Shown here: positions 9,339-35,599 of the stretch, in pieces
How positions within the stretch are numbered: position 1 is the stretch's first letter
How the letters are laid out: each line of letters begins with the position of its first letter
Source of the DNA: Alphaproteobacteria bacterium CG11_big_fil_rev_8_21_14_0_20_39_49
GTDB taxonomy: Bacteria > Pseudomonadota > Alphaproteobacteria > Rickettsiales > UBA6187
DNA: 35,599 nucleotides
Assembly: GCA_002787635.1 (NCBI GenBank)
Contig: PCXK01000007.1
Location: 166,551-202,149, forward strand
Reading direction: 5' to 3'
Position numbers and translations under genes: made by a program
Notes under the pieces: model-generated
What the model was told of the DNA's origin: nothing
Databases searched by the model: none
The model's input: the letters and a program-made list of their open reading frames with translations, nothing else

Positions 9339-9834
9339 CTAATAAACCGCCGTTCAAATCATCTTCTTTTGTTGAGGAGCCTTCTTTATCGTCTAAGCTT
9401 CCGAAAGCAAATTTTCCTATAAGTTCTTCAAGGCTTATCGAGTCCTGAGTATATCGTATCTCGCCACCCGAACTTATATATTCTTCTTCGCCACCCGGTT
9501 CAATGGAAATATATTTACCGCCTAAAAGACCGTCACCTATTACTGATGCCGAGCTGTCACGAGGTATTTTTATATCTTGGTTAATGCCCATTTCTACAAC
9601 GGCTTTAAAGTTATTCTGGTCAAGATACTGGTTTGAAATACTTCCTACCCTGATACCGCCGACCCTGACATCACTTCCGATTGACAGGCTTCCTATCTCA
9701 CGGAACTTTGCCGTTACGGTATAACGACCCGAATCAGAAGATATATTCCCGCTCTTATATGATATGAAAATAAAAGAAGCAGCTATAAACAGTACTACGG
9801 CACCCATCAGTGTTTCAATTACATTTCTGCCCAT
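9331..9834 (-). CDS. mlaD: MCE-domain phospholipid transport protein MlaD
   Basis: A 167-residue protein with one N-terminal membrane anchor (about residues 8-26, LMGAVVLFIAASFIFISYK) and a single MCE domain of about 80 residues containing GSDVRVGGIRVGSI and GLLGGKYISIEPGG. MlaD forms a periplasmic hexameric ring on the MlaFEDB ABC transporter that moves phospholipids between the two membranes. The other mla genes are not in the window. It sits 20 bases after the NDUFA12 gene, a neighbour often seen in alphaproteobacteria. Confidence 0.88.
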   Translation of the reverse strand: MGRNVIETLMGAVVLFIAASFIFISYKSGNISSDSGRYTVTAKFREIGSLSIGSDVRVGGIRVGSISNQYLDQNNFKAVVEMGINQDIKIPRDSSASVIGDGLLGGKYISIEPGGEEEYISSGGEIRYTQDSISLEELIGKFAFGSLDDKEGSSTKEDDLNGGLLDE

Positions 9835-33867: not shown

Positions 33868-33902
33868 TTGTTAGTGTAAATTTATAGTGTTATAATATAA
33901 CA
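33868..33902 (+). promoter_or_regulatory. promoter and Zur-box-like operator of the zur gene
   Basis: A -35 box TTGTTA (33868-33873), a 17-base spacer and a perfect -10 TATAAT (33891-33896). The -10 is embedded in the 15-base palindrome TGTTATAATATAACA (33888-33902), which matches the central part of the Zur box known from gammaproteobacteria (GTTATAnTATAAC). Repressor bound here would block its own promoter. Confidence 0.7.
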
Positions 33903-33932: not shown

Positions 33933-34400
33933 ATGTACACATGTGATAACCATTTGCTATGTTCAAAAGATGCAATAAATAAAGCTGAAATGATATGTAA
34001 AGATAAAGGTTTAAGATTTACATCATTAAGAAAAGAAGTGCTGGAAATTATTTGGTCGAGTCATATACCTGCTAAAGCGTATGATATATTGAGCAAATTA
34101 AAAAACTATAATGAACCTGCAAAACCACCGACAGTTTATAGGACGCTTGATTTTTTAATAGAAAACGGTCTCATTCATAAACTTAACACTATCAATGCAT
34201 ATATCGGTTGTTCACACCCTTTAAAGCATAATGAGTGTTACTTCCTTATATGTCAGAATTGTGAGGAAGTTATTGAATGTTGTAACGGCAATCTGTCTGA
34301 GGCAATATCTAAAACAGCCCATAAAAATAAATTTAATGCTAAAAACATAACCATAGAAGTTACCGGAAAGTGTGAAGAATGCATTAAAAAAACTCAATAA
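33933..34400 (+). CDS. zur: Zur-like zinc-responsive repressor (Fur family)
   Basis: A 155-residue Fur-family regulator. The N-terminal winged helix contains FTSLRKEVLEIIW and the recognition helix PPTVYRTLDFLIENGLIHKL. The dimerisation domain has two CxxC pairs (C107/C110 and C147/C150), the structural zinc site, and C93, H95 and H99 as likely sensory ligands. IGCSHPLKHNECYFLICQNC is closer to Zur than to Fur or Mur. Extra C4, H7 and C10 lie at the N-terminus. Palindromes of Zur type lie before this gene and before the next gene, supporting zinc regulation and autoregulation. Confidence 0.85.
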   Translation: MYTCDNHLLCSKDAINKAEMICKDKGLRFTSLRKEVLEIIWSSHIPAKAYDILSKLKNYNEPAKPPTVYRTLDFLIENGLIHKLNTINAYIGCSHPLKHNECYFLICQNCEEVIECCNGNLSEAISKTAHKNKFNAKNITIEVTGKCEECIKKTQ

Positions 34401-34429: not shown

Positions 34430-34462
34430 TTGACTTAAAAAAATGTTACGTTATAACGTAAC
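34430..34462 (+). promoter_or_regulatory. promoter with overlapping Zur-type operators
   Basis: A -35 box TTGACT (34430-34435), a 16-base spacer and a -10 TATAAC (34452-34457). The -10 lies inside the perfect 18-base palindrome GTTACGTTATAACGTAAC (34445-34462). The palindrome can be read as two Zur-like 13-mers offset by five bases (34445-34457 and 34450-34462), each resembling GTTATAATATAAC. The start codon is 27 bases downstream. Zinc-loaded Zur would silence the gene. Confidence 0.65.
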
Positions 34463-34488: not shown

Positions 34489-35599
34489 ATGGCATTCACA
34501 CATTTTAGTTCGGCATTTTGTATGCCTGTTAATAATGAGCAAAAAAGTAAAGAATCGAATCAAACATCATATAAAGTAAATTTTCACAGTCACGGTGACC
34601 ATTCGCATTTGAAAATAACCAAGAATGGTCAAAGTTCTTCTAAAAAGCATAATATTTCAGATTGCATAAGCGGTAAATGTGGCGATTCTCATAATAACAA
34701 AGACTCTGTAAATGCTATCGGCAAAGATGATGAGGGATGTCCGTGTTGTGCTGCGGCTATTGATTTAGATGAGGTTGCAGCCGCTACTAATGAAATAAAA
34801 AGCGGACTGGGTACGCATAGCTCTACGGGTCATGTGCCTGATTTTTCATCAGGAACGCACTGGGGTATATTTTTAGGTATATCGGGTCCTCTTGCTCTAT
34901 CGGGGTTAACAGCCGCATATAGGAATATTGAAGGTACTATTGATACGAAAAAGAAGCTAAATGTTGTTAGAAAAGGTTTAGAAAAAGACATTAAATCGTA
35001 TAAAAAGCAGTTAAAATCGGCAAAGGGAGGTAGTATTGAAAAGTTAGAAGGTGTAGTTGACAGGCTTGAAGCTTTTCGTAATAATCTGCAATATTCTCAA
35101 TTTGATACTGATTTTAATTTAGCAGTACCCGGTGTTATAAACGGTGCGGCATCTGCATTAGTAATGAGTACCGCTGTTTATAGTTCTCCGTTTGCACTCC
35201 CTGCTATAGCCCTTTATGCGGGGTGTCAGACTCTTAGGAACGGTTACGATACGTTTAAGCACTTTAACAGAATGTTGCCTGATGACTTGAAGGCAAATAT
35301 AGAATTAAGTCAAAAAGAGGGTAATCAAAAAATAAATCAGATTACCAAATCAAAAAGAAGTTTTTATTCAACTAATACTATCGGTTTTGCAGCTTTTACA
35401 GCCGGTGCAACATTAACTGCGGTAGCTGCTATCGGGGCTACGGCAGGCATTGCTTTGCCGGTTGGTGTTGCATTGCTTGGGGCAGGTGCTGTTGCAACGG
35501 GAGTAACAAATAATATATGGACGAACAAATTTAAGCCGAGAAACGGTGATTTAGGAGTTGATAGGAAAGAGCTTGATTTAGAAAGAGCCTCAAGGGAAA
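34489..35599 (+). CDS. putative Zur-regulated His/Cys-rich membrane protein (partial, runs off window)
   Basis: An uninterrupted reading frame from the ATG at 34489 to the window end, 370 residues visible without a stop. The N-terminus has clustered metal-ligand motifs: HSHGDHSH (33-40, HxHxxHxH), C59 and C64, H68, and GCPCC (83-87). The last resembles the CxCC motif of COG0523 metal GTPases, but no P-loop is seen. Hydrophobic segments lie at about 125-143, 211-246 and 298-340, the last Gly/Ala-rich. A charged, probably coiled-coil part (about 145-205) lies between the first two. No signal peptide is evident. No family was recognised. Upstream operators suggest induction by zinc shortage, so zinc acquisition, storage or a zinc-linked envelope role are candidates. 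Confidence 0.75.
   Translation, partial: MAFTHFSSAFCMPVNNEQKSKESNQTSYKVNFHSHGDHSHLKITKNGQSSSKKHNISDCISGKCGDSHNNKDSVNAIGKDDEGCPCCAAAIDLDEVAAATNEIKSGLGTHSSTGHVPDFSSGTHWGIFLGISGPLALSGLTAAYRNIEGTIDTKKKLNVVRKGLEKDIKSYKKQLKSAKGGSIEKLEGVVDRLEAFRNNLQYSQFDTDFNLAVPGVINGAASALVMSTAVYSSPFALPAIALYAGCQTLRNGYDTFKHFNRMLPDDLKANIELSQKEGNQKINQITKSKRSFYSTNTIGFAAFTAGATLTAVAAIGATAGIALPVGVALLGAGAVATGVTNNIWTNKFKPRNGDLGVDRKELDLERASRE

Follow-up and report, generated by a model that had tools for sequence, protein, structure and literature searches.

COG0523/CobW metallochaperones carry a GCxCC motif, frequently contain His stretches, and are often Zur-regulated (PMC2770081). The motif used for Zur in Caulobacter is GTTA-N5-TAAC (PMC4176598), and the alphaproteobacterial Zur boxes GATATGTTATAACATATC and GTAATGTAATAACATTAC are listed in PMC2706843. 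Zinc supply in the Rickettsiales seems little studied, and we found no literature joining "Zur regulon" with "Rickettsiales"; a new Zur-controlled family would provide this order with a definite zinc factor that can be tested and would hint at what an unannotated gene family does. Here, we describe a candidate at the end of a 35,599-nucleotide stretch (the window) of contig PCXK01000007.1 from a Rickettsiales genome.

The predicted product of this gene shares partial features with several described systems. As in COG0523/CobW proteins, a Gly precedes its CxCC (GCPCC, residues 83–87), but the window protein has membrane segments and lacks a GTPase domain or a Pfam cobW match; the likeness to COG0523 suggested by an earlier sequence-only reading holds for the CxCC letters and for nothing beyond them. 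A doubled operator is common to the window gene and a ZnuD-like gene of another genome (G299), but unlike ZnuD and the Zur-controlled TonB receptors, the window protein has no plug or beta-barrel and contains hydrophobic helices instead. Unlike ZnuABC, ZIP, and CDF transporters, it matched no family profile. It may work like ZrgA and the AdcA/ZnuA-type His-rich zinc proteins, with which the family shares His-rich loops and a zinc context, but the match to ZrgA itself was at chance level (E=0.2) and lay over the His-rich loop of the relative L010. Finally, an orphan family of the same order (family B; L074, L075, L077, L079, and L081) likewise combines an N-terminal His/Cys motif and hydrophobic segments with no Pfam family, and it sits in a zinc-type operon or under a Zur box, comparable to the Zur box context of the window gene. 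Homology between family B and the window protein was suspected by eye but rejected, since neither BLASTP nor two hhalign runs (probability 0.2%) detected it.

Results

The window contains the first 370 residues of an orphan membrane-type His/Cys protein (34489..35599, plus strand), as defined by its ORF, its translation, and its relatives. Position 35599 is followed immediately by a run of 13 N in the assembly (C7:202150-202162). When the contig was followed further, as had been proposed, an open frame was seen to resume beyond the gap (G000:C7:202163-203326), adding 387 residues before the stop. Both halves form one protein encoded by one gene in the relatives, being read through in L010 (609 aa, from Rickettsiales MAG TE-Jun18-211) and others. 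Because ∼27 L010 residues fall between the two halves of the window gene, the run of 13 N probably understates the gap; we left the gap bases as N and filled in no missing base. The gene thus continues past the window end and encodes a protein of about 780 residues. A prepilin-like gene after the window gene starts with a KTKDQRP repeat beside an N run, and prepilin-like genes with FTLIELS, ITILEVL, and FSLIEMS starts are scattered in the same genome (L001 4379-5188; L035 3624-4337; L038 2351-3139).

Kyte-Doolittle analysis placed hydrophobic segments at residues 125–143 (34861..34917, plus strand), 224–242 (35158..35214, plus strand), and 312–330 (35422..35478, plus strand), consistent with the minimum of three read previously from the sequence. 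L010 has four such segments, two of them adjacent and located at the place of the third window segment. Between the hydrophobic segments lies a charged stretch (residues ∼152–203; 34942..35097, plus strand) that appears helix-like in sequence and is helical in low-confidence models. AlphaFold models of L010, whole or N-terminal half, reached pLDDT values of 37 and 39, and both were unusable. At the N terminus of the window protein, neither a signal peptide nor a leading hydrophobic segment can be seen.

All His/Cys residues named in the sequence-only reading (HxHxxHxH at 33–40, C59xxxxC64, H68, and CPCC at 84–87) are present in the translation, i.e., H33, H35, H38, and H40; C59 and C64; H68; and C84, C86, and C87. 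Their conservation divides them into two groups. HxHGxHSH, corresponding to HSHGDHSH at residues 33–40 (codons 34585..34608, plus strand), and DEGCPCC at residues 81–87 (codons 34729..34749, plus strand) are identical in the window protein and in both relatives that retain an N terminus (G123 and G128), while C59, C64, and H68 occur in the window protein only. The expectation that orthologues would share the motifs was borne out for the first group and not for the second. L010 is identical at 178 of 370 window residues (48%) and retains every one of the seven His/Cys residues in these motifs. When the protein's own composition was shuffled 200,000 times, HxHxxHxH appeared in 0.01% of the shuffles and CxCC in 0.16%, and no shuffle contained both. 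His-rich loops of variable length are present in the C-terminal half of L010 and in that of L006; the C-terminal half of the window protein has no such loop. Judging from the residues and their conservation, the N-terminal His/Cys site probably binds zinc.

Profile searches of Pfam, NCBIfam, and PHROGs returned no family above chance for the window protein, in agreement with the initial view that it is none of ZnuABC, ZIP, CDF, or a TonB receptor. At E<=1, Pfam gave no match to either the window half or the C-terminal half, and L010 and L006 had no cobW match. Clear relatives were found in only three other genomes among the 344 of the order that were searched, G123 (which encodes L010), G128, and G294, the G294 copy being a short C-terminal fragment at the end of a contig. 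A sample of 385 genomes of the class yielded no relatives, the window's own genome alone being matched, and searches of plasmids, phages, and viral contigs yielded zero. With members in 4 of the 344 order genomes searched and none elsewhere in the class sample, the family is rare and patchy. The G128 copy (L011 6941-7201 and 5280-6791), with a frame break plus an in-frame stop, could be either a pseudogene or the result of misassembly. Three further matches were set aside. A profile match in G131 (E=1.7e-4) falls on a hydrophobic hairpin within a frame of 2394 residues; a PADLOC LeoBC match (18.9 bits; none for L010) likewise spans the hydrophobic hairpin; and matches in the PDB to a cobaltochelatase, 36 columns long, were taken as matches to a His-rich loop. 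By these searches, the window gene represents a new family.

The patchy, lineage-specific occurrence (4/344 genomes) within an order that is the Rickettsiales, together with the lack of a visible signal peptide and the large charged domains surrounding the hydrophobic segments, would also fit a secreted or host-membrane effector, which would be made during zinc starvation, exported with no Sec signal peptide, and inserted into a host membrane by its hydrophobic hairpins to draw host zinc toward the bacterium. We consider this unlikely: no known effector family was matched in Pfam or NCBIfam searches, and the analogous orphan family B is located in ordinary uptake operons.

The sequence-only reading had proposed a search for homologues next to zur elsewhere, and this arrangement was not found. 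The readable neighbors of the G123 and G128 copies are housekeeping genes (HldE, carB or dnaE) with no zinc genes beside them, neither copy has a convincing Zur box, and a zur orthologue is absent from G123, G128, and G294, an absence that is not certain because these genomes are 78–91% complete. The zinc link of the family consequently comes from one genome and from the motifs. Retention of the motifs in relatives lacking zur would fit a role beyond zinc, and the His-rich loops vary in length, so that the product of a Zur-controlled gene could instead store or buffer zinc, taking no part in uptake, or could handle another metal. Storage proteins are usually produced at zinc excess, whereas Zur repression would lead to production at scarcity; we regard this alternative, too, as doubtful.

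The gene 5' of the window gene (33933..34400, plus strand) encodes a zur-like Fur-family protein of 155 aa with two CxxC pairs (CQNC and CEEC), assigned from Pfam, NCBIfam, and its orthologues, which adjoin znu genes in G045, G014, G287, and G051. It matched the Pfam Fur family with E=1.7e-13, and its best NCBIfam match was Zur (NF008646; E=2e-31 versus ∼1e-9 for Fur), with a score of 109 bits that is under the curated cut-off of 167 bits. This fits the zur gene posited beside the orphan gene. Of the two Fur-family genes in the genome, the other is the stronger Pfam FUR match and lies on another contig. A sigma-70-like zur promoter (TTGTTA-17-TATAAT; 33868..33896, plus strand) was recognized as a consensus match only. 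The putative Zur box 5' of zur, TGTTATAATATAACA (33888..33902, plus strand), has a perfect gamma-type core, TGTTATANTATAACA, contains GTTA-N5-TAAC, and is the sole exact match in the 2.3-Mb genome.

ZnuA copies are located elsewhere in the genome, and the divergent znuA/znuC spacer (L036 2714-2756) has no Zur-like site, so the Zur regulon of this genome may be small. A ZnuD search returned nothing beyond a weak match to a TonB receptor (E=2e-10, 39 bits). TGTTATAATATAACG (L043 1501-1515) lies just 5' of where a 209-aa membrane-like ORF starts and is a possible further Zur target. A Zur-like site at 9713 was discounted as it lies inside an ORF.

Upstream of the window gene is a predicted doubled Zur operator, GTTACGTTATAACGTAAC (34445..34462, plus strand), which is a perfect 18-bp palindrome made of two GTTA-N5-TAAC sites (34445-34457 and 34450-34462) that are 5 bp apart and overlap by 8 bp. 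By eye, we identified a probable promoter (TTGACT-16-TATAAC; 34430..34457, plus strand) whose −10 element lies inside the operator and which falls below the rule of our scanner that a −10 must end in T; on sequence grounds, the predicted Zur box therefore overlaps the promoter. A genome-wide search for generic palindromes gave 60 sites versus 46 in the control, and because these counts are so near, only the best sites are meaningful.

In related genomes with zur orthologues, Zur-type sites adjoin zur, znuABC, COG0523, and MacB/FtsX-like permease genes. In G299, a doubled form, GTTATGTTATAACATAAC, lies 5' of a ZnuD-like receptor gene beside zur, and the receptor scores as ZnuD with E=5e-115. 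In G003, the gene that follows zur encodes a product with four His/Cys repeats, and the two genes have a related even-centred site, GTAACGTTATAACATTAC, between them. The window operator is identical to the G299 site at 16 of 18 positions and to the G003 site at 15 of 18. The window palindrome is 45 bp 3' of zur, is flagged as terminator-like on both strands, and would form an RNA hairpin of −7.5 kcal/mol (z=−2.5), so it might be merely the zur transcription terminator, leaving the window gene without zinc control. The stem, however, has only three G-C pairs, and the letters match the Zur consensus and the G299 and G003 sites, which a terminator does not need; we find this reading improbable. 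The Zur control first proposed from the operator is supported because the site matches the published motifs as well as sites that adjoin zur in other genomes of the order, among them that of the G299 ZnuD-like gene; on in silico grounds, Zur likely controls the window gene.

Discussion

From the anatomy of the locus, when zinc is plentiful, Zn-Zur would occupy the doubled operator overlapping the −10 element and block transcription; as zinc falls, Zur would leave the operator, and the ∼780-residue protein would be made. Its soluble N terminus would offer zinc a conserved four-histidine site and a CxCC triad, three to four hydrophobic helices would anchor it in a membrane, and its C terminus would form a large charged domain, to which two of the relatives add a His-rich loop. 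The most likely site of action would be the bacterium's own membrane, where the protein would partner an uptake system by binding zinc or would act as a buffer that passes zinc on. Zinc uptake, storage, or secretion had been suggested as possible functions, and we infer such roles only; that the protein is an uptake partner or zinc buffer strikes us as an evenly balanced proposition. The best explanation overall, held with about equal confidence and doubt, is that the window gene encodes a membrane protein of a new family that is repressed by Zur, binds zinc, and aids zinc acquisition or handling.

Family B has a comparable setting. Its members (L074 1498-3201; L092 2137-4206; L093 3752-5881; L094 5018-7054; L095 5580-7790) are 567 to 736 aa long, carry a His/Cys motif at the N terminus (in the closest members, CGHxHG...HFH), and matched no Pfam family above chance. 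In five genomes (G307, G302, G304, G314, and G301), family B lies directly 3' of a TonB receptor, as established by Pfam for G302, G304, and G314 and read from sequence for G307 and G301. Next after it comes ExbB/ExbD (G302) or a ZnuA-like protein (G307). A Zur box lies ∼145 to 150 bp 5' of family B in G306 and G291, and that in G306 could equally serve the divergent zur. By analogy, this zinc context lends plausibility to, and does not prove, a zinc role for the window protein. It is conceivable, if rather speculative, that Rickettsiales have repeatedly put His/Cys membrane or coiled-coil proteins that are unrelated and lineage-specific under the control of Zur or in zinc TonB operons, as a convergent zinc-capture class that would include the window gene and possibly act on host zinc.

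Orphan His/Cys proteins of several unrelated kinds were also seen near zur in the order (G003, G319, G325, and G306, the last from family B). The G003 protein (L056 6437-7790), encoded 3' of zur with a Zur-type site just before it, combines a Q-rich coil with four GHKHGPGCGC(H)EHSHD repeats and runs off its contig. The G319 and G325 proteins (L058 5861-6910; L059 10230-11282) are a homologous-looking pair near zur with dense HDHGHD and CSNPFHxHE motifs and no Pfam match; a Zur box precedes the G325 gene. The C-terminal region of family B has weak matches (E 4e-7 to 8e-3) to ORFs of ∼1,380 aa in family f20 genomes (L083-L086).
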